From Geosiphon pyriformis (lineage: Eukaryota; Glomeromycota; Glomeromycetes; Archaeosporales; Geosiphonaceae), in contig JAAOMT010000029.1 of assembly GCA_016748015.1 (NCBI GenBank), positions 65,652 through 111,215 of the forward strand: 45,564 nucleotides of DNA, in the 5' to 3' direction. Numbering within the stretch: the stretch's first letter is position 1; each line of letters opens with the position of its first letter. Under the pieces are notes generated by a model. That model saw nothing but the letters and a program-made list of their open reading frames with translations. It ran no database searches and was not told the origin of the DNA. Below, in pieces: positions 1,244 to 38,583 of this stretch. The translations under genes and the position numbers were made by a program.

Positions 1244-2543
1244 TAGAAATAGTGACAAAAAAAAGGGTGTTTCAAGAGATTTTTATTAGTTAATAAAAAA
1301 GAATAGTAATCTTTCTAGAAAAGATAAAATTTAATAACATTTGTACCATGTCTGCCCTTATTCAAGCTTGTATAAATGCAGTACCTAATATTAATTTTTA
1401 CACATATTAAAGCATTAATGTTAAGGTATCTTTGATAAAAAGCTTCTAGATTTCTGTTTGAGAAAATCTTGTAATTTATAAAAAATGTCCGCCATTACTT
1501 CCACCGGAACTGTATATTTTAGATTAGTGTTTGGTAAGATTTTATTTATTCCCAAATATTTAAAATAATAGGCAAAAATTTTAATTGAATTTGGGTTTTA
1601 AATAATTAACAAGCTGTTTTATTTGATATAATGTTTTGTTTAATTATCACTAAAATGCAGCCTTGTTTATTGTACTTAGTTTCAAAAGCCTTCATGTGAA
1701 TCATAAAAACAAATATAATTCTTGAAAACTTTTACCATTTCTATCATATATTTTGGAATTCTTGTTCTGGTCCTAAAAACTAAATGGCAACAAACATTAA
1801 TGGTTAGGAATAAATGTTCTTTTTTTCACAATTTGGAATTTTCATAAACTAAATGCTTAAAGTTTGTCTTTATATTGCCATCATATTTATTAAACAGATA
1901 ATAACTTCAAAAATGCAGAAACCAGAAAAAAAATAGGTTTTTATTGTTAAACGAGTTGGTTAAAAACCATTATCCACTTTTTTGGCAGACACTAAATATT
2001 ATTGAGCACTTGAACTCTCTTGACAGATGTTTGTGCTGGAATGGTTATTAATCTAGTGAATTGAATACAACTAACGCAATCAATTTATAAAATGATTGAT
2101 TCGAAGATTATATTTTTCTATAATCTCTTTGTTGTTTAATATCATAACATAACTAAATAAGCCCTGCTTTCTTGAAGCCAAAAGAACAATTCCTATTATA
2201 ATTCTAACTCAAAACAAAAAAATGAATCTTTTTTGTTTGATAAGTTATGCTATAAAATTCTCTTATTCGTATAAGATTTAATTAGATACAAATTTCCCAT
2301 AATTTTCGATGCAGGACTGAATTGTAAGTTTTAATGAGAAATTCGGAGTTTTCGGTTCTCATATAAATAAGGGGCTAAAATTCTCAGCTCTAAAAAGGAG
2401 GATCGTCACTGGCTAAGCAGATTATACAGTCTAATTACTTCGACGTGTACCAACTTGAAACCTTATTAGCTGCTCATTATAAAGGAAATCCCTGATGCAT
2501 ATATTTTTCATCAATCCTAGCTCAAACTTACTGATATTCTCTC
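1244..2543. other. Noncoding, AT-rich intergenic region
   Basis: No open frame longer than about 60 codons and no motif I recognise. It contains short A/T runs only. The last 150 bases precede the Sel1-repeat gene and probably hold its promoter and 5' UTR, but I see no specific element. Confidence 0.5.
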
Positions 2544-3516
2544 ATGTCAAATAAAGAAATTACATTATTACAACCCACTCCCAACATGGAGAATTCGGTC
2601 ACTGAATATACAAAAGCAGAAGAAGAAATCTTTTCCGAAGTGTGGAGAGTTTTTAGGTTGCGCAACGATAACTGGGTTAATGATGAGTCAATCTCAAACG
2701 AAATAAAGTGTTTAATCGACAATTCAAAGACGGATGCGGAACGTATTTCTCAAATGTTTTTTCAAAAACAAGTGAACCTGGAATATGCTTGTATACTGGC
2801 GCTGTTCAATTATTATGGAATTGGAATGCCAATTTATAGGGAACAAGGATTCGAGTGGTATAAAAGGGCTGCAGAGGAGGCAAACGATTTATTGGCCCAG
2901 ATAGAATTGGGATATTGTTATACACATTCCTATGGGACTCACCTTGACTATACTAAGGCCTTTTATTGGCACAAGAAAGCGAGTGATGGTGGTAGTCCTG
3001 GGGGTCATTATTTTCTAGGGACTTGTTATGAACAAGGTATTTTGGGATTTATGTATTATCTGATCTGCTTTAGCGTTCAGACTTTCCTTACCATCAACGG
3101 GCATATATTTCAATTCTTTTATAAAACCTGTTATTCATACTATCATGATTAACAATCTACTTGTATAATCTTTCTTACCAGGAATTGGAACCGAAAAGAG
3201 GCCTGAAATGGCATTCTTTTATTATCAAAAAGCTGTAAATGAACAATATTTTGGTGCGTTGCCTTGGCTTGCATGTTGCTATGAAAGGGGTTTCGGTACA
3301 AGCAAGAATGGGGTTAAATCTTTTTATTGGGCTGATAAAGGCCGTCAGATGAAGAACATTCATGCAACAATGAGTTTGGCAAGACTCTATGAAAATGGGG
3401 TTGGGAGATGTAGAGATATTCATAAAGCAATATACTGGTACAGCAAGGGCAAGAGCAAAGATGATGACAGATATGATTCGTTATTTGCTCTCAATCTTCT
3501 TTTCAAAGTTCAATAA
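2544..3516 (+). CDS. Sel1-repeat protein
   Basis: Two exons, 2544-3036 and 3182-3516, joined through a GTATTT donor and TTACCAG acceptor; the join restores a Sel1 repeat across the intron (CYEQG|IGTEK). Product about 275 residues. The N-terminal 70 residues are polar and unrecognised. From about residue 75 there are four to five tandem Sel1-like repeats of about 36 residues, with the pattern A-x2-L-x2-CYE-x-G-x-GT and AFYWYxKA (for example LACCYERGFGTSKNG and ARLYENGVGR). Sel1 repeats form alpha-solenoids that serve as protein-protein adaptors. In Glomeromycotina such repeats are known to be abundant, often fused to protein kinase domains; no kinase domain is present here. The start at 2544 is the first ATG of the open frame; 2586 is an alternative. 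Confidence 0.85.
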
Positions 3517-5183
3517 AGTTGGGAATATGAATCTGTGTGTCATTCCTATTATGAAATTTATTATTGTGTGAAATGTTACTAGTAGATTTATTTGGGGGTG
3601 GGTATAGCAATTTTTCACAAAAATTACCCTTATATGGTTCGATATTTTATATTCTTTTACATAACATGTGTAGACCAGATGAAATTTTCTTTTGCGTTGT
3701 CTTAGTGTCCAGCTATTTCAAAAATATCCTCTGATTCGAGTATAGTAAGTGAAGAAATCATTTCGCCAAAAAATCTAGCGAATAGATTCTTACCCAAATT
3801 GCTAAAACAATTGAGAGGAATCAATATCTTTAAATTCAACATAATTTTGTAAAAAGCCGTTTACGACAAACATTCTTTTGAGTGGCGTTTAAGATAGAAA
3901 AAATTGAAGACTTTCTCATAATATATAAGGCTGCTTGATCAGAGAATTATTCCAATCCACTCTACTGCAATTAATTTCAAAGATAGCTTACAAATCTATT
4001 GTGAATTGGACTTTTGAGATATATTTTGATTTGAAAACCCGAATTTTGGCTCCAACAAAGTACATGTACGTATTTCTCTGTTTCTTATACATGTACATGT
4101 ATTTGAATAATTTTTACAATCAGATGACTTTACTCGATACGTTTTTGTTTATCACATCAGGTATAAAACTTACCCACACGTAAATTAGGTTTATTAAGTC
4201 TACTGTGTGATTTTGTGTTAAACAGATATAAATAAACCAGCTGTTAATTAGATTAAAAATTTGGGCAGGCTTAGTACATGTATATAATAGAGGGAAATTA
4301 TCAAACAAGGATATAAAAGGCTACTAAATAAATATATCTTTAAACTTTTCATTGAATTCAATTTTCATGCTAAGCCAGTATGAAAATGACTTAATTTATT
4401 GATCATCAATCACATCAAGTGTAAAATATCAGGTAAAACTTTAGCAAAATATCATTCATAACTTTTCAAGCGATAGAAATTATTCTAACTTATTAAATTC
4501 TGGATAAAATTAAAGTTAAGAAAATGTTTGCAAATAAAGTCAAGATCGGATACTTTGATTACAGCAACATGGTGCAATCAATTTAGAGCTTTCAGAAAAG
4601 ACAAGGGAAATTTGAATATTTTCAAATTTGACACCTTGAATTGATCCCAATATCAAAATCATTGCTTTTTAATTTTTGTCCTACATTACCTGTATTCGAA
4701 ATAGAGGGTTGCAAAAAGACTTTCAAAGCACAATGATTTCAGAAAAAGTTACAAAATCAAGTTCCCTGTTTTTGGAGTGTTAAATGCCCCCCTCCCCAAG
4801 TAAAATAGCTAAATCTGGAACTCATTCAAATTCATCTCATTTGACAGCACAAAATCGTCTGATTTTTTCCCCTATTTCATATGGTAGACAATACTCGGCA
4901 TATCGTATGATTTTTGGAACAATTTTTTACAAAAACGTGATGCATTATGTCTTGGCTTTTTACCCAACTCTTGCTGGAAGCTCTTATGAAAGGGTTGAAA
5001 ATTGAAAGTTTTTAAAGGAATCTTTTTATTCCACTTCTTTCTATTAAAATTCACAATTTTAAAGTCTTGAAAAGGAATTTCCTCAGTATTTATAACAAAT
5101 TTGATTATTCCAGTAAAGCAGTTCATCAATATTAACAATACCTACTTGACACTTTTTCTTGGTGAAAATATATAAAAACCCAA
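3517..5183. other. Intergenic region without recognisable genes
   Basis: Only short open frames (up to 82 codons) with poor protein character. The bases just before 5184 should hold the promoter of the desaturase gene; no clear box is seen. Confidence 0.5.
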
Positions 5184-6385
5184 ATGACATTACCACCATT
5201 TTCTTCGGGTGACTTCCACTATACAGAGCTAGAATTTAAGGATATAGTTATTGATGAAAGGCATCCATTTTATATCGGTGACTGGAAAAAAGCAATTGCC
5301 TTCATTGACGACGATTTTGCAATGGACGATCTGGACGAGCCACACTTAAAACGAGGAATAACAATTTTTAAACAACATCCAGAAATCGAGAAGCTATATG
5401 GTTATGAGCCAAAAACTCTGCCAATCACAATTTTTGCCACAATTTTTCAATTATCTGCTGCTTATACCTTTGGAAAAGTCTTCAATAATTGCGATTGGAT
5501 ATTGCTAATTTATGCGTATATCATTGGGGGCTCCACATCACAACTTTTTGGTGTTATCATTCATGAAGCAGCGCATGGGCTTGCTGCTTCAACGCAATTT
5601 CAAAACCGGATCGTCGGACTATTAGCCAATATTTCGATTCCATTTCCAATCGCCATGTTATTTCGTCGTTATCATTTAGACCATCATAGATTTACTGGTG
5701 TTGTGGGCATAGATTTGGATTTACCCTTGGAATGGGAAAAAAAATTTATAAGAGGGAACGCGTTTTTAAAGTTTCTATGGGTTACATTTTATCCGGCGAT
5801 TTGCTCATGGCGAACGGTTAAACACTTAAGATCCCCTCAATACTGGGAATATATAAATGCTGTTTTTACAGCCACAAGCAATATTATTATCTTCTTTTTA
5901 TGTGGCTCGAGGGGTTTTTTCTTTTTGTTAATTTCCTCATGGTTTGGCTATGGACTTCACCCTGCTGCAGCTCATTATATACAAGAACATTTTACTTTTG
6001 ACGATGGTCAAGAAACTTATTCATATTACGGGAATTTAAATAAGTTGTTAATGAACATAGGATATCACAATGAACATCATGACTTTACACAGGTAATATT
6101 TTGTTTCTGATTTTCCAAATATCCTCCTTTTGAAAACGAATAAAAATTGGTTGAACACTATAGATTCCTTGGTCAAGATTGCCAAAAGTTAAGGAATTAG
6201 CTCCCGACTTTTATGAAAATCTTGCTTACCATACCTCATGGTTTGCAGTACATTGGAATTTTATTACGCAAAGACAATTTGGTCCACAAAGCCGCCTCTC
6301 TCGAACCATCAGTGATCACAAAAGGGGAAGAAAAATGCTTAGAAACGTAAAACATTTTTTTAATGACGAACAATATTACAATTGA
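5184..6385 (+). CDS. DES1: Sphingolipid delta-4 desaturase (DES1/DEGS family)
   Basis: Two exons, 5184-6092 and 6164-6385, joined in phase 0 (donor CAG|GTAATA, acceptor TATAG), giving about 376 residues, near the usual length for the family. The enzyme introduces the delta-4 trans double bond into the sphingoid base of dihydroceramide and is an ER multi-pass membrane protein. The sequence shows the N-terminal lipid-desaturase region (KQHPEIEKLYGYEP), several hydrophobic segments, and three histidine boxes that bind the di-iron centre: HEAAH, HLDHH and NEHHD. The third box lies at the end of exon 1, directly before the intron, and exon 2 continues with IPWSRLPKVKELAPDFYENL, typical of DEGS proteins. 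The tail is basic and extends past the animal homologues. Its 3' end faces the TFIIS-like gene; the stop codons are only 93 bases apart. Confidence 0.93.
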
Positions 6386-12451: not shown

Positions 12452-13951
12452 ATGAACTTTCATCCCCAACGAGGATTACCCTACGCTAACTCAGAAAGCA
12501 GCGATAGTAGTCAAGAAGAGGATAGTGGACTTAACTCACATAATGCCGTGTTTATTTTACCAGATTCTTCATCAAATCCTCCTCTTCAGATTTCTTCTCA
12601 AAATTCTATTAATCAACTTCCTATGTACACTATAAACGACCGGTAAGTTCTTTAAAAAAAATAAATACGCAAAAAATTGAACCTTTATGATATCTTTCCT
12701 TCTTGTCGTGTGTAAAAATTTGAAATCTTTTAAGCGCCTAGTCAAACCCAGCACTATTCTTTTAAAATAACAGACAGAACAACGGCTCATTAGACCACTC
12801 ACTACAACACCCACAGTATAATTCTTCCCATAGCACATCTATTGCTCAAGCCTTTTTTGGATTTACCCGTAATAATTACAACCAATCTAGTTCCCATTCC
12901 ATCAACTCATTATCATCCTCCAGATCATCTCGAGACACAACGACTTCAAGGCAAATTCCTCCGTTGCCTCCGGTATTACCAGGTCTTATTCAATATATTA
13001 TCAAAATATCAAACTCTTAGCATTGATGAGCTCAAAATATAATTATATCTGAAAATCTTTCTTTATGGATCTAGGTTTAGGAATAATTTATTCAACCTCT
13101 GGATTCGACATGTTAGGCATTTTGGTAAAAACTTTGAATATAAAGAAAATTTTGCTTTCCTTTATTTAAATATAATTAACTCAAAAATATTTAAATTAAA
13201 TTTAAGGCTCGTGTAGCCACCAGGTAGATGATTATTTAAAAATTTTTTAATTTCATCTGAATAAAGAAAGCATCTCAATCCAAATCATATAAATGTAATT
13301 AGTTACAGCCCACGTGATGTTCATTTGTCACATTTTTAATCCCATCTTTAAAGCCTGAGCTTTTCATCAAACTATGTTTTTATTTATTCCCATTTTAATA
13401 GACCCAACCCACAGATTGATCTTGGACCAGTTGATCTCAATTGTTCATTAATAGTAGGTGAGTAAGATTGATCAAAGATTTAAGGTGTTCTCATTTAAAA
13501 AAAAAACTACATGTTTTCCTTGTTATGAATTTGCAGTTGATGCACGGAAACCTGATCTTCCTGTTGTGTATGCCAATGATTCATTCGAAAGATTAACTGG
13601 CTACCCACTTAGGGAAATAATAGGCCGTAATTGTCGGTTTCTGCAAGCCCCAGATGGTCATGTGACACTTGGATCACGTCGTGAACATACTGATCCGACA
13701 ACCGTTTATCATATGAGGAATGAAATCAATTCGGGACATGAATGTCGCGCCAGGGTAATAAACTATCGAAGGAATGGTCAGGTAAATAAAACATGAGATT
13801 TTAAATTCTTTTTCAACACCCAATTAATTAAAACTTGAATCTTTTTTAATTTATGAAGAGATTCTTGAACGAAATAACAGTTATTCCAATAAGAGGGGAT
13901 TATGACGAACTTTCATACTATGTTGGTTTTGCGGTTGGAATTGAAATGTAA
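12452..13951 (+). CDS. LOV-domain blue-light photoreceptor, white-collar-1 type, LOV-only
   Basis: Seven exons: 12452-12642, 12774-12982, 13075-13124, 13207-13223, 13402-13457, 13537-13781, 13859-13951; the phases fit and give about 286 residues. Residues 1-130 are low-complexity (Ser/Asn/Gln). From about residue 134 the protein follows the WC-1 LOV region: IIYSTSGFDMLGILARVATR, PNPQIDLGPVDLNC, then the flavin-binding core GRNCRFLQ with the photoactive cysteine, FERLTGY, VINYRRNGQRFLN and YYVGFAVG. In fungi this fold binds FAD and drives light responses and clock entrainment. The frame stops right after the LOV core, so the PAS domains and GATA zinc finger of WC-1 are absent; the architecture resembles Vivid/Envoy, while the FDMLGILARVATR segment is more WC-1-like. 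Downstream frames show no PAS or zinc finger. The donor at 12983 (GTCTTA) is weak. A gene truncation is possible. Confidence 0.85.
13207..13223 (+). other. 17-nt micro-exon of the LOV gene
   Basis: Flanked by TTTAAG and GTAGAT, this exon encodes ARVATR with the last Arg codon completed by the next exon. Without it the conserved ILARVATRPNPQ block of WC-1 proteins would be broken, and both phases (0 in, 2 out) match its neighbours. An automatic gene finder could easily miss it. Confidence 0.85.
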
Positions 13952-15044: not shown

Positions 15045-18000
15045 TTATAACAAAGTAGTGATTCCAACTTCAATAGTATCTTCAGTTGGAATTTCCCAGT
15101 TGCCGTGCAAATCTCGGGAATTATTTGCCATAAACTGATAGAAGTTCAATAAGGGAGCTCTTAACCAATTACCGAGCCTTGGACGTATTTTATGTCGAGT
15201 AATTACGTAGGTCACCGCGGGGCTCCCAAGTAATTGGTCTGCCTTGAGAGATTCTCGTTCGGGATCAACTTTTATTATTTCTTGAATTAATTTCTGAATA
15301 AAATCTGATGACTGTATTACGGGCTCGATATAACCGTAACGAGCTATTACTCTGTACGCCCCAGCAAATTCACTAATCTTACGCACCACCAATCGATCTT
15401 CCTCACCAACAAAGGGAACAGCTACTGGTCGAATTGATATAAAAACCAAAGTCTCATGCACAGCCGATAAATGTTGTACAAAATGCCTGAAACTTAGTGG
15501 AATACTGAACCCAGCATCTTGATAAAATAGCCCGATGCCAGGAACTCGATGAATCTTTGAATTATTGCCAAGAAGTCGTAATTTTTGTGGTTGTAAAGTT
15601 GGAACAAATGAGATTGTGGGATAACTTTGAATAAATTCTGTCGTTTTAGTTTCAGGGATAACGTGACCATTGTCTTGAGTTATCTTAGATATGTCATTGT
15701 CTGATTCTATATTCTCGGGTGAAAGGGTATTTGAAGATGTGACAGGAAAATTTTGACTAATGAACAAATTTTCAAGACGCACTTTGTTCTTCGATTCATA
15801 TTCAATTCGAAGTGTAGTCCCCCATTTCCAAATAAACATTATTGTTGCCAAAATGAATCCAGAAACCAACGTGAACCAACCACCATCCTTGACCTTCCGT
15901 AGAGATGAAATCAAAAAAGCCCCATCCACAAGACCAAAGAAAAGCAGAAATGTGATTGGGACGAGAATATGCTGGCGCCAGACCACGTACATTACCACCT
16001 TTAATCAGAATTGACAAGATTAGTAAATGATCAAGGAAAAGGAAAATACTTAAATGATGTAATTTCTCTTTACCGAAAGTAAAAGTGTTGTTATAAACAT
16101 GACAGAGGCAACAGACACCCCAAAAGCACTAGTGAGCCTTGCCGATTCTTTGAACGTAACCACAATAATAAGGACCACGACCATAAGAAAAAAATTTACT
16201 GCAGTTTTTTAAATCAACAAATGGTTACTGATTAGTTGAATTTTTTTAAGCATGGAAGTGCAAAGGTCAAGGTTCTTTGAATAGATCATTTACTTTCAGG
16301 GATATAAACTTGCCCTTGATGTTGGCGAGAAGTATATACAATCTTTAAAGAATTATAAAAATAGTCAAATACACAGATAAAGAGGGAATAAACATAATAA
16401 TATATCAATATACCTTAACCCTAGGGAAAAAATCAAGTTGCATCGCTTGATGAAGCAAAGTGAACGAGGCCGAAATTAATGCTTGAGACCCTATAATTGT
16501 TGCTCCTATAGCTAGCGAAAAGATAAACCAATAAATGACATCCTGTTGAGGGATTGTTAGCCAAAAAACATTTGTGAAAAGTTCCGGCTCATTAACTAAT
16601 CTAGCACCCTGGCCCATGTATACAAGTATCAATGGTGGATAAACGAGACAAGGAAAAGATAATTGAATGGCGCGACGATTAAAATGACCCATGTCAGCGT
16701 ACATTGCCTCAACACCGGTGACAGCAAGAACGACACCGGCAAGCGAGTTAAATCCTTCTGTGCCTTTTCGTGTAAAATATTGGAAACAATAATATGGATT
16801 ATAAGCTTTCAAGATTTGTGGATGTTTGCTGATATTCCAGATCCCGATGCAACCAATACTAATCATCCAAAGAAAAATAATTGGAGCAAATACAATGCTG
16901 ACTCTATCGGTGCCGAATCGTTGTCCGAGAAAAAGTAAAACTATAATTAGGCTGAAATTACGACCTTGTTAGACCATAAAATATAATATCAAAGCAAGGT
17001 TAAAATCTGAAAATCATTTTGTTTACCATGATATGGGAACTACTGCAGAGGACAATTTTGGAACTGAAATTTCTATTCCTTCAACTGCTGAGATAACTGA
17101 AATTGCCGGAGTTAATAGTCCATCGCTTAGAACGAGCGATGCTCCAGCAAGCACTAAGATGAGTAAAACTTTTTGAACAAATTTGTTTCGAGCGATAAAG
17201 TCTGATTTCTCTTTGGCGCTATGAATGGAAACCGTATCATAATTGACAATCTTAAGGTCATCCTCATGTTTTTCACCTCGAACGGCTAGACCAGAATATC
17301 TAAAGTTAAATCAAGAATTTAACATTAACTCTCTATAGTTTCTTACTTTCTGATAATTATCTTGGAGAAAAAAATTTGCGACCTGCCTTGTAAGAAGCGA
17401 ATAAAGAGCGAAAGTCCCGCCTTCCCCGTTATCATCAGCCCTAATGACAATAAAAACGTACTTTATCAACGGCACGATTGTCCTGAAAAAAGTTATCTGA
17501 TTGAATTAAGTTGCAAACAGTACAAAAACAGAAACCATAGCAAGCTGACTATCCTTAATCTTACAAAGACCAAATAATGAGAGAGAGAGTTCCTATTAAT
17601 AAAATTTTCCCAAGTTTTTTCACTTGTGTGGCAAATATTTTGTAAAGGATCAAACAAAAATTACCATAAACATCACGAGGATCTTTTGGGGCCTCTGAAA
17701 ATATTCCCGTATAAGCATACAATGGAGAAGTTGCAAGATCCCCATAGATTACACCTGAAGCCAATGTAAAATGGGAATGAAATTCGATTTTTTACAAGAC
17801 AAAACTATTTTTTCTAAAAGATTATACCTAAAGACTTGAATGTCAAAATAATTGTCCCAATTGCGGTGACCTGAAGAAATTGCAAAAGGAAAAAGATATA
17901 TGTTCCAACTAACTAATCAGAAATAATCCTAGATCCATCTCTGAAGTAATAAGAATTGGGCTAGCCTTTTTGCGTGGTCTAAGCTTGCTTTCTAAAGCCT

Positions 18001-28975: not shown

Positions 28976-29862
28976 ATGAATTTCATTTCATCATACAATC
29001 TTCCCTTGTACCATTCAAAAAGATATTACGATTGTCAATTCGAACTTTTTTGGCGAAAAGTTAGCCAGCAAAACTCATCAATTTCTTCACGTAAAATCAT
29101 TCAATCTATTTTATTACTCTTCATATTGATATACCCAATGATACATATTTATCATAAGCATAATTATCATTTATCGAAAAAATTAATACAAAATGATTTA
29201 TACAATACGACAATGCAAAAAAACCTTTTTAATTTTAGTTATGAAATAAATCGGTTTCCAAATTTAGTTAGTCGAGAACTAAGCAAAAGTATCAGTCATT
29301 TCAAAATAAGGGTTTCCAGTCCTGCTTTCTTACAAATGACCCAACAATACGCATGGTATGCCATGAAATCTTATTGTTTGAACAAGAAAAATATCGTTGC
29401 TCCAGGAATTTATGGTAATTTTTTATCTATCTCGACAGCTATGAAATGATTTATTTTTCAAAAAGTTAATTTTTATAATTTCTGTAAATTATAACCCCAG
29501 CAAACATTAAAGTCGTGCAGGACCAAATAATTCTAAGCGTCAGGGGACCAAATTTAAATGATCCCAAATATTGGGAATCAAGAAGTCACGAGCTTATTGC
29601 CTTCCAAGGAGTTCATGGTGCAAAAGTTGATGCGGTATTTTATCAACAATTTCAGAAAACTAAATCTGCCCTAGGGGATGAAATATTGGAAACAGTAAAG
29701 GCAAATGAGATTTATACAGTCGCGTCTGTTGGCCATGGTGCAGGTGGTGGTAAGCAGACTCATACCCTAAAAAATAATTCATATATTCTATATTTAAGCG
29801 GAAATTTGAAAAAAAAAATTTATATTGTGCTCTCTCTCTTTTTCTCTCTCTTTTTCTCCCTC

Positions 29863-29956
<94 letters not shown>

Positions 29957-30592
29957 ATTATTTTATTTATCATCTTAGTTTTCGCCACATTTGCTCTATT
30001 GGAGTTTTGGGAACAGATCAATTCTATTAATGCTAAGATAGCAGAATTTGAAAATTTGATCAAAGTTCAATTAGTATTGGTCAGTTTCGGACAGCCACAC
30101 ATTGGCAATAAAGTCTTTGCACAATATATGAATGGACTTCAATATAAAGGAATCTTGAAGGTCTATCGATTTACTAATACAGACGATATGGTGCCGAGAC
30201 TACCTGCTCGTGTTGAAGGGGCTTACCATCATTATGTGCATAGTGTTTTCGAAGTATGGCAAGGTGAATCCACTTGTGACTGTCAACAAGAAGATACCAT
30301 CCTATATTTATGTAAAGGTCAAACACTATCAGACGAGAGAGGTATTCCATTAATTGAGGAAAGTCAGGTAACTATTTTAAATCATTTAAGCCTTTTTACT
30401 CTTACACAAAAAAATTAAACTTAATTTATTCAATTAAACTTTGCTTTTCTCAATTTTTATAAAAAGGAATGCAATAATAAATATGGGATAGCTCATTTTA
30501 CTCCACACAACGGGCCATATTTGCAAGTGCCAATGGGCAGTTGTTTAAAAGACATTCCTCCATGGGAAAAACCCATCTTCCACATACATTAA
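28976..30592 (+). CDS. Class-3 lipase-like protein A with nucleophile Ser replaced by Gly
   Basis: Four exons, 28976-29414, 29501-29749, 29979-30367 and 30467-30592, phases matching, about 400 residues. A hydrophobic segment at about residues 40-60 after a basic stretch suggests a signal anchor. The body follows the fungal class-3 lipase (Rhizomucor lipase) fold: QQYAWYAMKSYC helix, QIILSVRGPN strand, the nucleophile-elbow block VGHGAGGVFATFALLEF, the SFGQPHIGN block, RFTNTDDMVPRLP with the catalytic Asp (about 299), and a C-terminal ECNN...PHNGPY block with the probable catalytic His (about 373). The elbow should read GHSxGG, but the serine codon is GGT (Gly226), so classical hydrolysis is not expected. 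Paired cysteines (CDC, LCKG, ECN, GSC) fit an extracellular location. Genes B and C are paralogues sharing three intron positions. Confidence 0.88.
29830..29956 (+). repeat. 127-nt uninterrupted polypyrimidine (CT)n tract in intron 2 of gene A
   Basis: Every base from 29830 to 29956 is C or T, mainly CT units with TTTC interruptions. It fills much of the 229-nt intron; the same intron is 107 nt in gene B and 82 nt in gene C. It ends about 20 bases before the acceptor. Confidence 0.93.
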
Positions 30593-30728
30593 CATTTAAA
30601 CCATTTAAATCCATACTTTCCTTTCTCAATTACTCATATAAGGTTGGTTTTTTTTATCAAAAAGTTTCTTTTTCTTTAAAATAATCAAAGATATCTTAAA
30701 AAACTTTTTTTTTGCCATTTTTAATTAT

Positions 30729-31013
30729 TTGATTAAAAAAATTTTCAATTTAATTGGCTGTACAAAAATTGTTCATTATAGAAATCGATTTAGGGATTTA
30801 AATTTTTCACATGTATTAAGTAATATGGAGCGATTAATAAACCTATTCTCTCAAAATATTGAATTCCAAACTCTAGACCCAGACAAAGAGCTTCATATTT
30901 TTCAACGGAAAATTTTGGAAAACAAAAATTTTAATTGGTTGATGATTTATGAAACTAAATATTTATCCAGTTTCATCTTTATAGGTATTGAAAAAATTCG
31001 CCTAATCGAATAA
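30729..31013 (+). other. Unrecognised 94-codon ORF between lipase-like genes
   Basis: The peptide is rich in Ile, Phe, Asn and Lys, as AT-rich DNA produces by chance, but the middle (LSNMERLINLFSQNIEFQTL) is protein-like. It has no hydrophobic leader and no motif I recognise. It does not resemble the lipase family and cannot be joined to gene A by splice sites. Confidence 0.2.
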
Positions 31014-31581
31014 ACAGACCATTAAAATAAATTATGATGATGATGATGATAATGCTAAAAGGAAGGTGGGTATGACCTGATTCCTAAATCGCCTGAATTC
31101 CCAACAAATTTTCATATCATGATATTAATATATATATGTATAATGGATCAGGCCAAAATTTTATTTAATTCCTATCAAAAATATCGGGATAGATGATCAA
31201 TAATCAAATATTTGCATTGGGTTTAGCTGTCAATTTGTTCCATTGTCAATCCCCAAACGATGAGAAACTTTATGTCAGGTGAGAATTTTCCTTGTTCCTG
31301 TTACGACTTATGACCTGCATCACAAGCTCTTACTTCTTTATCAAATTTATCTATTATTTCTTATGAAGATCTGTTTGTAATTATTTTTCTTATAGATAAA
31401 GTTGACAAACAATGAGAGTACCCCAAATTTTTTTGAAGAATTTCCTACATGTCTTAATTAGAGCCTTAATAGAGATTTTCGTGATAAATTTTTTAACTTT
31501 TTTATAAAAACAAAAATACTAAAACAAAAATTAAAACTATTCACACATGATTTTTTTTTTTCTGAAAATTATTTTGAAATC

Positions 31582-31609
31582 TTTTTTTTTTTTTTTTTTT
31601 TTTTTTTTT
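31582..31609. repeat. Poly-T run of 28
   Basis: A homopolymer of T on the plus strand; it could be the poly-A tail of a minus-strand retro-insertion, but no element body was recognised beside it. Confidence 0.8.
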
Positions 31610-32018
31610 GAAAATTAAAAAACTGTTTAAAAAAAAATTTATAACAGAATTTATTCAAAAAAATATTCATAATTAAAAACTTTTTATCATGTATTAAATA
31701 TTAAATTTATTATGAATTTAAAATTTATTATTATTTTGAAAATTTTTAATTAAAATTGTAAAAAATTAGGTTTTAAATATATTGGATAAAATTTTAATTT
31801 TAATTAAAATCTCAATTATCAGATCAAAATATTAATTATATTGAATTATTATTATTATTATTATTATATCCAAATGGTATATATTTAATAAATTTTAAAT
31901 CTGTTAATAAACTGATTTTACTTTATTTAAAAATTATTTAAATATTGAATAAAATTATTTATAAAATAATGATAATAATAATAAAAATAAAAATAAATAA
32001 AAATAATAATAACAAAAA

Positions 32019-32022
<4 letters not shown>

Positions 32023-32078
<56 letters not shown>

Positions 32079-32079
32079 T
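32023..32079. repeat. (AAT)n microsatellite
   Basis: About 19 AAT-type units, with shorter imperfect AAT/ATG units before it. Confidence 0.85.
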
Positions 32080-33386
32080 GTTGTAATTAAAAAAAAAGTA
32101 TTACAATTATTTTCAAAAAATGAAAATTTGAATGATTATAAAAATATTTTTATTTTAAATATTAATAATGTAATTAATATTCTTTATTATTTTATATTTA
32201 AATATAAAATCCAAAAAAAAATAAAAATGAAAAGATGAATAAAAAAAAAGTAATTTTTTTTTGTATTTTGTAACAAATAAATAAAGAATCAGAAATTTTT
32301 TTTTTAAAAAAAAACCGTTTCAAATTTTAAATGACTTTATTTATTTATTTATTTATTCAAATACAAAGTAATATATTATTTTGAAGAAAAAAATATCATA
32401 AATAGTCAGTTAAAATTTTCAAAAAAAAAAGTTATTAATGAATCGATTAAAGAATGAATGTTTTCTTGACAAATAATATTGGAAAAAAAAGTAAAAATTA
32501 ATTTCATTAGTTTAATTTGTTTGTTTAAACTATATTTTGAAAAATTGTGTTATGCTGAAAAAAAAATGTAATGAAATATTTTATTTAATTTTTACAATAT
32601 ATATATATATGTATTTTTTTTTTTAAAAAAAAAAAAAGTAATTAAAAAACTTATTTTTAATATTTTAAAAGGAAAAAACATTTTAAAAATAAAAAAACTT
32701 TTTGTATTATTATTATTATTTTTTTTAAAAAAAAAGCATGATAATCTCTGATTAACCAATAATACTCTGTTTTTTTTTTGGTGAAAAATAACTATCTACA
32801 TATTTTGGTTAATCTCCTTTGAGTTTGTCGCAGAATGGAAGATTTATGTATTATTTACACATTTAGCTTTATTAGCTTTGCTTTGTCGATAAGCTATTTT
32901 GGGCTAGTAATATCCAAATTTGAAATTTTATTCTCAAGTTTTTGTTCAACAATGATTTCATATTTAATGATCGCGGAGATAGAATACATGATAACTTTCA
33001 AAACAATCTAGTTAAAGTGTTATTATTATTATTATTATTATTTTTTGAAATTAGTTATTTATGATAATCATAGCTCTTTGTTTAATAATAAAATGGGTAA
33101 TCACGTTTGAAACTATTCGATTGGATTTCAAATTTTGTTTTGCCAAACCATTTATATTGTATTTTTTTTGAAAAAGTGCTTTTCCAAATTCATGAAAAGA
33201 AGGGATGAATTGGAGCGTAAATTATTTTTCACCAAAGTTTAAAAATTATTTATCGATCGATGGTCTGAAAAAATTGCTTTAAAAATGAGGTCAGTTGAAT
33301 AAAAAGTTTTTGTATCATAATTATTCCCTTATAAATTTGCTTTTTAATTATTAAAAAATTTTATTTGTTCACTTTTCTTTACCCTC

Positions 33387-34846
33387 ATGACACATTCAAA
33401 TTTTATTATTTTGAAACATTTAATAAAACGATACAAAGTTTTTGATCTGTTGAAAGAGGGAAATGTTTTGCTCAAATTTTTGATTGCAAACTTATTATTC
33501 CTATTTATATGTGGAATTATATTAAGTCAAATGAGCGAAAAGTCATCATTATGGACATTAAATCTCTATTTTGAGAATTCGACTAACCCTCAGACCCTTC
33601 CAATTCTTGCGTTAAAAAATATTTCAATTATCCCTTCTTTCGGGAACCAAAATTTCACACCTAAAAGTCCGGAACGGGAAAATTTTACAATTTCCTATCA
33701 TACATTTAATTCCATTTCTAAGCATAAACCTTTCAATAAAAAAAATACCAATGGTTTTAAAGCAAAATTAACCGATTTTCAACTTGAAAAATCCAAAAAA
33801 TATGCTTGGCATGCATCACAAGCATATTGTCTTAAAAATGAACATTTAATTGCTTCAGAAATTTATGGTATATGTTTTTTATTTTTTAAAAAATAGGAAA
33901 CAACAAGAGCTTGATTTATTTAAAAATATTTATTTTTAGCAAATGTTGAGGTTCAAAAAGGAGAAATTATTTTGACTTTCAAGGGTGAAAAAGTGAATTA
34001 CCAAAGTTATTGGGACGGACGAGAGAAAGGCCTTATTCCATATCAATATAACCAAAGGGCGTTTGTCGATAAAATTTTCTTTCAGAAATGGAATCAAACT
34101 AAAAATTCCGTCTCAGAACGTATAATTGAAGAGATCAAATATCATGGTATATACACTATTGTAGCGGTCGGACATGGGATAGGTGGTGGTAAGCTTTTTA
34201 TATTAATCAAAATCTCTGATGATTATTTCACTTCAACCTTTGAGTTTGATAATAAGTTTCCTATTTTTATTTTATTTTTTTTAACTTTACATTAGTCTAC
34301 GCGACTTTTGCAATTCTAGAATTGCTAGAAATTTTAAAATATTCGAAATTCAAACTAGATCCTATTGTACGTGCTCCAAAGCTTTCTTTGCAAGTATTTA
34401 CATTTGGCCAACCCCACATTGGTGACAGAGAGTTTGCAAGACATGTTAATGATTTAATGTTCGAAGGAAAGTTATTAGTTTATAGATTTACGAACACAAA
34501 CGATTATGTTCCTCAATTACCAGAAAGTACATTTCAAAGCTATTACACTCATCATGCTTGGGAATATTGGATTGCATCAGATTGTGAATGTGCACTTCCT
34601 GAAGTTTATGTTTGTCAAGGACCAAAAGTTTTCGAAGATGGTAAAACATACATTGGAGAAAGTCAGGCAAGTTTGATTTAACCATTTTTGAAACTCAATT
34701 TTTTGCATTTCAACTGACTTTTTTAATATTATTAGGAGTGTAATAACAGCCTCCAACCAAGTTTTACATCACATAATGGTCCATACTTAGATATAATGAT
34801 GGGAGACTGTATACGAACAAACCTTCAAAAAGAACGAGTAGCTTAA
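33387..34846 (+). CDS. Class-3 lipase-like protein B with nucleophile Ser replaced by Gly
   Basis: Four exons, 33387-33867, 33940-34188, 34296-34666 and 34736-34846, about 403 residues; exon 2 is 249 nt as in gene A. A membrane segment lies at about residues 29-47 (LKFLIANLLFLFICGIILS). Fold blocks: KKYAWHASQAYC, IILTFKG, VAVGHGIGGVYATFAILE, FTFGQPHIGD, RFTNTNDYVPQLP with the catalytic Asp, HHAWEYWI, and ECNNSLQPSF with SHNGPY and the probable catalytic His (about 380). The elbow residue is Gly240, codon GGG. The last intron begins GC (AGTCAG|GCAAGT) and ends ATTAG; without splicing the frame stops at once, and the splice recreates ESQ|ECNN exactly as in paralogue A. Secreted or type II membrane protein; catalytic activity is doubtful. 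Confidence 0.9.
34667..34735 (+). other. GC-AG intron in lipase-like gene B
   Basis: Donor AG|GCAAGT is the optimal GC-donor consensus and pairs with a TTAG acceptor; the intron is 69 nt. Gene A has a GT donor (AG|GTAACT) at the equivalent codon, and both join ESQ to ECNN. Confidence 0.9.
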
Positions 34847-36960
34847 ATCTTGATTAACAAAATATAGATTCTTGAATTCAGACTTTATTTATTTATTTAT
34901 TTATTTATTTAAAAATTTATTTAAACTTTTATTTAAACTTTTAATAAAAAAAATGTGTTTTAACTATATAGTATAAATTATTTAAAAAATCTCAATTGAT
35001 ATTTTTATTGAAACTTCTTTGGTTCCCGAGAAAATGTTAAAGTTATAATTTTTATCTTTGCTGTAAGCTAAGAATTTCCACCATTTTTTTTTGATGCATA
35101 AACTACCTCATCTGGTCATCTTGTATCAAAATAAAACAAAACCAGAATCGTTTATGAATCATTAACTTTCTGAACCGGTTATATTTTTATCTTAATTGGT
35201 CTTGTTAAAAGCAAGATATCTTTAGTTAAAGAATATTTTCTTTTTTAATTATATAATCATTGACCTAGGGAATATCAATTTTTCAATTTATTCTATAAAC
35301 TCTTACAAATGAAAAATGAATTTTCATTTTTTTGAATATTTCAAAAAAAACATTGATATTTTATCCTTAACGTTTCGTTTATTTGAAAGGTAAAAATTTG
35401 TTAAAATCGCTAGTTTTCATTTTTTCGCTAATTAACAATATTATCCACAGTGTTATTCAGACTAAAAATTAATTAGGCTGTTATCCTCGGGGATGAATTG
35501 AGCAAAATAAACTTTTTTCCTAGAGTTAAACTATGCTTAATGCTTCTAACACGTGGTTAGGTATATTAATTGCTTAATCTGTTGGCATTTCATATTCGGA
35601 AGAAATATCTAATGCGAATAATTCTCAGGTGATGGTGTCATGGGTACGGTTAAGCTGAATCTCAAAAGTTTAAAACTATCTTGATTTCCAGAATCTATTA
35701 TTTATCAGATTAATGGAAAAGAGTTTCGTGAAAGAGCTAGATTTTCATATAATAAAACTTTAAAAATTTTGTTAGATTTTTAAAGAATTAAAGTAGCCTT
35801 GGTTCTCAAATTATTCGTTAAATTTCATATAGTATTCGTATATAACCTCTCACCATTGTGATTTCTTCTAAAAGAATATGAATTAATTGAGCTTTTTGTT
35901 TTGCAACTTAAAATTATTTTTAAATTTCTCTTGAGCTTAGGGAGTACTATTGATAACCATAAATTTTGAATAGAGTCCTATTAGCGAATGCAGCTTGTTA
36001 AAAAATTAAGATTTTCTACAATGTTAATTGATAAAGGTTAATTTAAAGGATAAAATCTATTATAAAAACTTTTAGCTTATGAATAAAAATGATTTGTATG
36101 CTATTGAGGATAAAAACTATTTTTATAACAAGCACAAGAAATTTTCTTTTAAAATTTTCTTCAATGTATAATACATTGAAGAAATAACCTTTTACATCTT
36201 TTTATAATAATACTTTCACAAAGATAACAAATGAATTTTAAAACTAGAATGAAATCAGTATTTTTTTATGCCCTTTGACAAGAAATACTCTAAAGTTTGG
36301 ATTTTTTTAACTTTATTACATTCTAAATATATATATTAAATTAAAATATAAAATATTTTCTTTTATATTTGGTTTCCTAAGAGTAAATTTGATCAGAAAA
36401 GTAAAGGAAAAAAAATGTTTCTTACATTTCTTTTATTGAAGAGTAAAAAGTTTGGTTGATAAATCACTTTTTTAACAAAAATTCAGCCTACCTTAAAATT
36501 TATTTTTCTATCCAAAAAGGAATTTTCATACCCGTTCCTTTACCGGTGCTGGTCTCCGATCTTGTTCATTTTTTAATTAAGACAAACAAATATTAAACTA
36601 ATTTTCTGGCAAAAAAATAAAAATCGCTTTAAATCCATATTAAGAGGCGTTGGTTTATCAATCATATTCAATATTTGAATTTGTTCGCTTTCATCAAAAT
36701 GAAGAAATTTTGTTTAATCAAATTGAATATTTATACTGTTTGATGAGATTGCCGTAAAAATCAAAAAGGTCATAGAACTTTAGGAATATAACTTTTTAAA
36801 TCTTGGACCTTGAAAAATTGCTATCATAATGAAATTTTTCTTTATTTTGTTGCGAATTGATAGTTTTCCATTTTGAAAACTCTGCAAATTAAAAATAAAT
36901 GATCTCTGGCGAATTTTTTTATTGATAAAAAAGCGGTTTATTGATAGCTTTAAAAGATTA
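34847..36960. other. Spacer between convergent lipase-like genes B and C
   Basis: About 2.1 kb of AT-rich DNA with a (TTTA)n microsatellite at 34886-34911 and no recognised gene. The 3' ends of genes B and C face each other across it. Confidence 0.5.
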
Positions 36961-38583
36961 TCAAGATGAAAGAAATTGGTTGCACTCTCCAAAAGTAATA
37001 CCAAAATAAGGACCAAAATTACTGGATTTACCTAATCCATCAGTTGACTTGTTACATTCCTGAATTAAAGTACAAAGTTAAAGAGAAAGAAAAGATTTAT
37101 ATCAGTCTAAAAGAATTTCAAACCATTTTGATGTTTTTAAGTTGGCAAAAAAATCATACCCCGTTCTCGGCAAGTTTTCCTTCCCTTGTATAATATGATG
37201 GGCATTGATAAAGATCAAATCGGTCCGAGTTTTTGCCATGTATAGTGCTTTTGCAATCACAGTTGACCTGAGTGATCCAGAATTCTTCACCGCTATGTAA
37301 ATATTCTTTCCGTGTAACAGTCATTGTTGGTAATTGCGTCACAAAGTCATTTGTGTGCGTGACTCGAAAGACTCTGAAATGTTCTTCTAAGGCTTCGTCT
37401 ATAAGTTTCGCGAATTCATAATTTCCAGCCCTGGGTTGTCCAAAGGTTACAACAGTAATATACACGCTCTTGTGTTTTATTTGTAGGAGAGGCCTTTTTT
37501 TTAATTCCCAATGTACCATCAGCGCCAGATATTGTGCATAAACTTTGCATAGTTCCCATCAATAGAAATTGTATTTAGCTTTTATTAATTAAATTAGTGT
37601 AAGATATTGTCAAAGAAAAAATACCTCCTCCAATCCCGTGTCCAGTAAAAAAAATATTAATACTTTCAGATTGTATTACCTCCATTTGATGTTCAATCTT
37701 TGTTAAAAGCCTTGAAAATATTGCGCCGGATATAACTTTGGACCATTTGGAATCAATTCTAAAATGAATTTTTTTTTTTTCAAGCTGAGTAGTAACTTCA
37801 TTTTGATAGAATTTCATAGCTTTCCATTTGCTTCTAGTCATTTCTGGTCCTAAATCGAAATTTCCATAAATGAAAAAAGTCACAATCCAGAAACTAAAGG
37901 AAGAGTTATTTATATTTTTGAATTTAACAGCAGTTGACTTACCACGTAAAACTCCTACGATGCCAGCATCTTGGCCCGTCAGAAAAACGTCTCCTTTTTT
38001 TTTTTTTTTTTTTTTAAAATGAGAATAAATTAAAGAGTCAATTAAACTCTGTGTCTAAATTCTAGATTTCTCTTTATATATATATATATATATAATTTCA
38101 TTTATTACAATAAATGTAGTTACCTATTATTTCAGGTTCTTCTCCCCCAAGATAATTGAGTTCTTTAGTACAATAAAGTATACTTGCCCACCTTGCCATA
38201 TTTTGAAAAAAAACTCCAATCAGGGGATCCTTGATCAAAATTTTAGGTGGTGATTTGTTTGTAGAACCAAAACCCTTTGCGCTACGGCTCATTAAAATTT
38301 TTCGATGCCCCTTTAAAGACTCGTTTTCGACCATATACGAAGAATCTCTATGAATTGATCTAGTGATCAAGTGCTGGGTATGATTAATGGATAATTCTAA
38401 GTTTGAAAAGTTCAAAGGCGGAGGCTGCATGCCACTAACAAAAATACAATTAAAGAGCATGCTAAGTAAAATAAAAAAAAGTTCTAATGATAATGATGAT
38501 GATGATGATGATTGAAATTTGAAGCGAAAATTTCTTTTTCTGCAATGACGAATTTTATTGGCAAAGATATTTGAGCCCTTCAT
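36961..38583 (-). CDS. Class-3 lipase-like protein C lacking the catalytic Ser and probably His
   Basis: Five exons on the minus strand: 38583-38124, 37993-37943, 37849-37625, 37542-37160, 37059-36961; phases match, about 405 residues. A basic start and a serine run are followed by a hydrophobic leader (about residues 34-51, LFFILLSMLFNCIFVSG), probably a signal peptide or anchor. Fold blocks: MARWASILYC, VFLTGQDAGIVGVLRG, FTGHGIGGVYAQYLAL, VTFGQPRAGN, VTHTNDFVTQLP (catalytic Asp kept), YLHSGEEFWI, and the C-terminal ECNK block. The elbow Ser is Gly242 (GGG). Where A and B have HNGPY, this protein has NFGPY, so the catalytic His appears to be Asn387. It shares three intron positions with A and B and has one extra intron after a 51-nt exon. 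YLHSGEEFWI is closer to Rhizomucor lipase than in A and B. Confidence 0.86.
38075..38095. repeat. (TA)n microsatellite in intron 1 of gene C
   Basis: About ten TA units close to the donor side of the first intron of gene C; a poly-A run on the coding strand lies just before the acceptor. Confidence 0.75.
38486..38513 (-). repeat. Coding (TCA)n microsatellite giving a serine run
   Basis: On the minus strand TCA units encode a run of six serines just before the hydrophobic leader of gene C. The repeat is in frame, so length changes would alter only the leader region. Confidence 0.85.

Follow-up and report, generated by a model that had tools for sequence, protein, structure and literature searches.

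Glycine at the nucleophile elbow of a large class-3 lipase-like family in Geosiphon pyriformis

Three genes of the fungus Geosiphon pyriformis, here called A, B and C, encode class-3 lipase-like proteins in which glycine occupies the position of the catalytic serine. They lie in a stretch of 45,564 nucleotides (the window; contig JAAOMT010000029.1 of assembly GCA_016748015.1, positions 65,652 to 111,215 of the forward strand) and are part of a family spread through the genome, where glycine stands at most of the matches to the nucleophile elbow. Sequence argues strongly that most members of the family are not serine hydrolases. What its members do instead is a more tentative matter: our preferred reading, held with slightly less than even confidence, is that the three genes are members of a derived pseudo-lipase family of class-3 lipase fold, which has expanded hugely and most likely binds acyl lipids without serine-type hydrolysis.

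Three genes and a genome-wide family

Spliced models of gene A (28976-30592, plus strand), gene B (33387-34846, plus strand) and gene C (36961-38583, minus strand) give complete proteins of 400, 403 and 405 amino acids; in each of them a linker joins a hydrophobic segment near the N-terminus to a class-3 lipase domain. An earlier reading of the window from its letters (the sequence-only reading) had placed GHGAGG, GHGIGG and GHGIGG at the three elbows, with GGT, GGG and GGG as the codons at the nucleophile position, and the intact spliced genes bear out both statements. The serine of GxSxG is found in none of the three. The degenerate pattern G-H-G-x-G-G occurs three times in the window (29731 and 34170, plus strand; 37643, minus strand) against 0.05 expected, and none of 100 shuffled windows contained three or more. 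Spliced domain sequences of A, B and eight paralogues all match the Lipase_3 profile (PF01764), A with 63.9 bits against a cut-off of 22; gene C, which is outside this set of ten, has a match above the cut-off at window 37322-37525.

Exon limits follow from splice models, supplemented by hydrophobicity for each first exon, by pattern search for the elbows and the exons that hold them, by alignment for the aspartate exons and by a motif score for the last exons. In gene A, exon 1 (28976-29414, plus strand) encodes the N-terminus and the hydrophobic segment and ends in ..IY(A); exon 2 (29501-29749) runs from the oxyanion loop (VRGP) to the elbow, with the GGT codon of Gly226 at 29737-29739; exon 3 (29979-30367) carries SFGQPHIG, TNTDD with the catalytic aspartate, and CDC; and exon 4 (30467-30592) carries ECNN..PHNGPY, with the catalytic histidine, and ..MGSC before the stop. 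The intron that follows the elbow exon holds a long CT-rich simple repeat (window ~29829-29957). Gene B, also on the plus strand, repeats this order: exon 1 (33387-33867), exon 2 from the oxyanion loop (FKGE) to the elbow (33940-34188; GGG codon of Gly240 at 34176-34178), exon 3 with TFGQPHIG, TNTND (aspartate) and CEC (34296-34666), and exon 4 with ECNN..SHNGPY (histidine), ..MGDC and the stop (34736-34846). Gene C, on the minus strand, has five exons: exon 1 (38124-38583), a short exon 2 ending in VLRG (37943-37993), exon 3 from PEMTRSKW to the elbow (37625-37849; GGG codon of Gly242 at 37635-37637), exon 4 with TFGQPRAG, THTND (aspartate) and CDC (37160-37542), and exon 5 with ECNK..SNFGPY, ..FGEC and the stop (36961-37059). 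A pair of cysteines, CxC, follows EYWI (EVWQ in A) in each protein, as CDC in A (30275-30283, plus strand), CEC in B (34583-34591, plus strand) and CDC in C (37253-37261, minus strand). All introns are of the GT/AG type except for one GC donor, that of exon 3 in B. The sequence-only reading had described the intron positions as kept; this is so for the intron directly after the elbow (..GG G|GT), which all three genes share, and does not extend to an additional intron within the oxyanion loop of C.

The catalytic aspartate is present in A, B and C, as had been claimed. The wider claim that the rest of the fold is kept stands in part: the Lipase_3 matches and the aspartate agree with it, whereas the catalytic histidine, retained in A and B (HNGPY), is replaced by asparagine in C (SNFGPY), which leaves C without two residues of the triad, and the oxyanion residue after (R/K)G is proline in A and C and glutamate in B rather than the threonine or serine of catalytic lipases. 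Since proline has no backbone NH to donate, A and C are unlikely to form a standard oxyanion hole. The proposed hydrophobic leaders are likewise present as segments, but about 27-40 residues precede them in A-C, and they would resemble signal anchors more than classical signal peptides.

The assembly searched comprises 124.7 Mb in 406 contigs and may be a filtered set (the available part of PMC9453076 gives 795 scaffolds and 129 Mb). The 18S primer site of Glomeromycotina and the start of the 18S gene found no match in it, which says little, as rDNA may be absent from the assembly. A Lipase_3 profile search started from 748 first-look candidates, scored 150 of them and gave at least 163 matches. 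For a count independent of the profile, the elbow plus splice donor was searched as a DNA pattern across the whole genome, with the reversed pattern as control; this pattern is blind to variants such as GFG or GHGxAG and includes a few chance matches. With any residue at the nucleophile position it matched 402 times (reversed control 7). Glycine accounts for 287 of these (71%; control 1), serine for 42 (10%; 37 AGY and five TCN codons, control 0 for each) and asparagine (AAY) for four (control 0); the other 69 have none of the three, and 360 in all lack serine. Among the matches listed, 14 have neither glycine nor serine (five Ala, two Phe, two Tyr and one each of Asp, Asn, Ile, Cys and Glu). 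The cluster of three genes that the sequence-only reading saw is real, yet it is one part of this genome-wide family, and serine-bearing relatives do exist in the same species, as a minority of the paralogues. For comparison, Glomeromycotina arbuscular mycorrhizal fungi average 189 lipases when all kinds are counted, according to the available part of PMC12574304.

A locus-by-locus sample, overlapping the loci of the pattern count, gave a similar picture. Of 134 listed regions that match the latter half of the domain, 94 were examined and A-C added, making 97 loci; 90 of the 94 match from profile position 74 or later, past the nucleophile, and four (L019, L022, L023, L047) span it. Elbows were read with a score that is blind to the nucleophile position and trained on GH-type elbows. 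Three loci fell under its threshold and were dropped (L019, another lipase type with serine; L048, best reading GYN; L055, no elbow), and the 94 readable elbows have Gly 64 times, Ser 21, Asp 3, Ala 2, Asn 2, Cys 1 and Arg 1. With L047 left out for want of an exon-3 model, 93 rows were aligned, 21 with serine and 72 without. Exon-1 frames were found for 84 of 94 loci, start codons being taken as predicted, and 82 of these frames encode a hydrophobic N-terminal segment. The loci are strongly clustered: of 141 listed, 63 lie within 15 kb of a further one, where random placement would give 4.5. Two loci, L006 and L019, represent a second, distinct lipase type (GHSLGAALGTLF) with its serine intact and no intron after the elbow, and stand outside the family.

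Close homologues in viral and bacterial collections proved to be ordinary serine lipases. These relatives comprise 97 loci (67 viral-contig, 30 bacterial), one of them unreadable, and all 96 readable elbows have serine. They were found with a glycine-type profile (A1) that reads GHG, as does one of the two search patterns, yet serine was recovered. Compared with these bacterial and viral-contig relatives, glycine at the elbow is a property of the Geosiphon family and not of class-3 lipases generally.

History and constraint of the altered active site

Serine and non-serine members are intermixed in a carefully built 93-row tree, from which the elbow columns were removed; the serine label needs 12 changes on it, at least eight of them forced by starred branches. 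In a 103-row tree made by a quick method, which also takes in two lipases of solved structure and eight from bacteria or viral contigs, the changes forced by starred branches fall to 4-5; no branch here sets the outgroup apart, and Rhizomucor miehei lipase and feruloyl esterase A (FaeA) lie among the fungal rows. Seven canonical serine members fall, together with these two enzymes, outside a single 86-row set (72 non-serine, 14 serine; SH-aLRT 98). Genes A and B cluster with L043 and L067, and C belongs to a different subclade with L069, L056, L085, L057 and the serine member L075. Terminal branches are long (median 0.68 changes per column). Switches between serine and non-serine have thus been repeated within one fold in one genome, and each may be a loss or a regain of serine.

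The two catalytic partners of the serine are retained alike with and without it. The aspartate is present in all 93 aligned members (72/72 non-serine, 21/21 serine), although the loci were found by a profile that contains it, and the histidine in 71 of 85 (56/67 non-serine, 15/18 serine), exon 4 being located by a motif score blind to the histidine column but requiring a GPY-like motif. Absence of the serine is therefore accompanied by no visible relaxation of its two partners. Ranked by conservation among non-serine members over 204 columns, the aspartate is 4th, the histidine 28th and the elbow residue 30th, and seven columns have no exception at all. The CxC pair after EYWI occurs in 63 of 72 non-serine members, in seven of the 14 other serine members and in none of the seven canonical ones, and so marks the derived set. 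At the oxyanion position, a loosely aligned column, threonine is found in the five readable canonical members, whereas only five of 68 non-serine members have threonine or serine and ten have proline. No more than 13 residues from the oxyanion glycine, 43 of 68 non-serine, six of 14 other serine and one of five canonical members have a tryptophan. As for a substitute nucleophile, which would have told against the sequence-only reading, the aligned part, which lies beyond exon 1, holds no other fixed serine; a serine follows the elbow residue immediately in nine of 72 non-serine members, and among these members Ser, Thr or Cys reach 60% only in two columns of threonine, also common in serine members, and five of cysteine.

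Selection on the family is mostly purifying. The ratio of nonsynonymous to synonymous divergence (dN/dS) was computed by the Nei-Gojobori method for the 26 closest pairs. Among the 15 pairs with dS below 1, ten of which stem from one five-gene group (L032, L033, L059, L062, L068), dN/dS is 0.33-0.63 in 11 and 0.76-1.03 in four; three of these four involve L062 or L068, both of which are damaged-looking and look like young pseudogenes. Eight further pairs with dS of 1.0-3.2, which are less reliable, give 0.18-0.56 (three of them serine-serine pairs), and the remaining three are saturated. Among A, B and C themselves synonymous sites are saturated, with a pN/pS (uncorrected proportions) of 0.50-0.61. 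The comparison among paralogues that the sequence-only reading had proposed thus favours constraint in most near pairs, though not in all, and its idea of a conserved pseudo-lipase family under selection gains support on a larger scale than it had envisaged. Neither broken frames nor a dN/dS near 1 characterises the family, L062 and L068 being the likely exceptions. The five-gene group consists of recent near-copies on five contigs, with the elbows GHGLGG, GHGSGS, GHGSGG, GHNLGG and GHGSGG in the order given above. Elbow glycine codons (n = 63) are GGT 27 times, GGA 25, GGG 7 and GGC 4, within the range of the adjacent invariant glycines.

What the proteins may do

Without a serine, the acyl-enzyme mechanism of this family should be impossible, and a strained backbone turn at the elbow residue may partly account for the preference for glycine; both points draw on what is understood of class-3 lipases. 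From there the preferred reading proceeds more cautiously. The N-terminal hydrophobic segment could anchor the proteins in, or export them beyond, the plasma membrane, the old acyl pocket might bind lipids (a fatty acid, a monoacylglycerol or a symbiont lipid) without serine-type hydrolysis, and such capture or delivery might serve a fungus without FAS-I that depends on imported fatty acids. Lipid binding is suggested because both the fold and the active-site partners are kept and the fungus has that need. No match to the FAS-I domains PF18325 and PF08354 was found in the genome, in a search with weak controls (only one of 14 control genomes, C. glutamicum, rang, over the cut-off in one search only, and none is fungal). 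Loss of FAS-I in Glomeromycotina is described in the available part of PMC10629195.

Several points weigh against lipid binding. Full retention of the aspartate exceeds the needs of a plain lipid binder. The sampled loci, as the better-scoring Lipase_3 matches, are biased toward a conserved aspartate. The tryptophan of the lid region is rarer in canonical members and so is weak evidence for lipid contact, and the oxyanion column is the loosely aligned one. The argument from a strained turn is weakened by the 14 listed residues that are neither glycine nor serine, Ala, Phe and Tyr among them. Four of the 15 near pairs have a dN/dS of 0.76-1.03, and the signal-anchor topology is read from hydrophobicity.

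The strongest rival, possible though on the unlikely side, is that these are diversifying secreted or surface proteins (effectors, symbiont-management proteins or self/non-self recognition proteins) whose fold serves only as a scaffold for functional loops and which have nothing to do with lipids. Some 400 elbow matches, the strong clustering, the long end branches, the four near pairs with high dN/dS and the near-universal hydrophobic segment all fit this; however, the aspartate, histidine and elbow columns are too well conserved for the old active site to be free scaffold, and 11 of the 15 near pairs are under purifying selection. We consider it improbable that the proteins are still enzymes with another mechanism, be it a His-Asp general base acting on water or a substrate nucleophile, or thiol chemistry at CxC. 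Cofactor-free dioxygenases of the alpha/beta-hydrolase fold do use a His-Asp pair, and retention of both residues without serine, as well as the CxC pair in non-serine but not canonical members, would agree; against this, the histidine has become asparagine in nine of 67 non-serine members, gene C included, the oxyanion residue is proline in ten of 68 and threonine or serine in only five, and the aligned part offers no other fixed serine.

Inactive partners or inhibitors of the few serine-type lipases, for example dimerising with them or competing for lipid interfaces, would find their targets in the same genome, where canonical serine members with an RGT oxyanion loop occur (five readable of 93 aligned), but 287 glycine to 42 serine elbows are hard to reconcile with one-to-one partners, and this seems a distinctly poor candidate. 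Relaxed decay toward pseudogenes, with glycine as the easiest step from AGY, is very improbable. It is true that AGY to GGY is one transition, that the serine codons of the locus tally are AGY in 21 of 21 cases, and that L062 and L068 are damaged-looking, with three of their pairs at 0.76-1.03. Yet 32 of the 63 elbow glycine codons are GGA or GGG, two steps from AGY; AAY and GGY lie equally close to AGY, and the four occurrences of AAY in the genome against 287 of glycine count against drift; A-C are intact, 11 of 15 near pairs have a dN/dS of 0.33-0.63, and non-serine members keep seven columns free of exceptions. A sequencing, assembly or annotation artefact can be practically dismissed, as the sequence-only reading had already done in the case of sequencing error: nothing was found in favour of an artefact, and the same state recurs in hundreds of divergent loci on dozens of contigs, in four synonymous codons.

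A bolder version of the preferred lipid-binding reading concerns the symbiosis. Geosiphon keeps cyanobacteria inside its cells, and several hundred secreted or membrane-anchored pseudo-lipases at this interface might bind or pass on Nostoc lipids or envelope components through an Asp-His site without a nucleophile. This is speculative and unlikely as it stands; if true, a 'lipase' expansion annotated as digestive would be a non-hydrolytic lipid-handling or symbiont-management system. More generally, for a fungus without FAS-I the family offers concrete candidates for extracellular handling of host or symbiont lipids. It is also a natural experiment, in which serine and non-serine states have switched repeatedly under constraint on the remaining active site, so that the role of the leftover catalytic residues can be tested.

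Window neighbours and comparison with known systems

Other genes of the window, whose GC content (guanine plus cytosine) is 23-33%, include a sphingolipid delta-4 desaturase (5166-6110, plus strand; Lipid_DES and FA_desaturase) and exons of a HAK-type potassium transporter (15045-16968, minus strand; K_trans and K_trans_C). A LOV/PAS domain (13458-13796, plus strand), closest in the PDB to Neurospora Vivid, marks an exon of a white-collar-type blue-light receptor in a soil symbiont. Exons of a Sel1-repeat protein lie at 2535-3516 (plus strand); this repeat family is expanded in Glomeromycotina, according to the available part of PMC9453076.

In a PDB profile search, the best matches of the family were Rhizomucor miehei lipase (1TGL), Thermomyces lanuginosus lipase (1DT3) and FaeA (1UWC/2HL6), with E values of 6.5e-28 to 8.4e-27. 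The elbow, FGxPRxG, the aspartate, EYW and the C-terminal histidine region align with these enzymes, and three cysteines align with 1TGL. Unlike them, the family has glycine over their serine and has lost the oxyanion threonine or serine; it also has CxC after EYWI, the N-terminal hydrophobic segment and a linker of ~65-95 residues.

Very large Lipase_3 counts in an early-diverging fungus recall the Entomophthorales, for which the available part of PMC11105155 reports 348 genes in Entomophthora muscae, 190 in Zoophthora radicans and 132 in Entomophaga maimaiga. There they are viewed as likely enzymes metabolising host tissue, the nucleophile goes unmentioned in that part of the paper, and trypsin is over-represented in the secretome unique to E. 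muscae; the Geosiphon genome, in contrast, has no trypsin match, in a search that rang in 11 of 14 control genomes. Together with the lack of FAS-I matches, this speaks against the Entomophthorales as its source. Lipase_3 counts have been taken as a sign of host-tissue degradation in fungal comparative genomics (e.g. PMC11105155, available part). With 360 of 402 elbow matches lacking the catalytic serine, such a use of the count would mislead here. Open-access titles and abstract openings, a scope that does not include the Geosiphon genome paper, yielded no description of serine-lacking class-3 lipases in these fungi, and the available parts of PMC11105155, PMC12574304, PMC4771724, PMC11134847, PMC8778642, PMC10629195, PMC11426481, PMC9453076 and PMC4746824 do not mention them.

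Weak profile matches were also obtained to plant EDS1 and PAD4 (E 1e-9 to 4e-5). The plant immune proteins EDS1, PAD4 and SAG101 use a class-3 lipase-like domain without hydrolysis and are defined by a C-terminal EP domain. A-C differ from them in ending 6-15 residues beyond the last cysteine of the lipase domain, which excludes an EP domain. Insect yolk proteins and neuroligins are alpha/beta-hydrolase pseudoenzymes without the catalytic serine; they share with the Geosiphon family the loss of serine within a hydrolase fold, but belong to other hydrolase families and are known in few copies.

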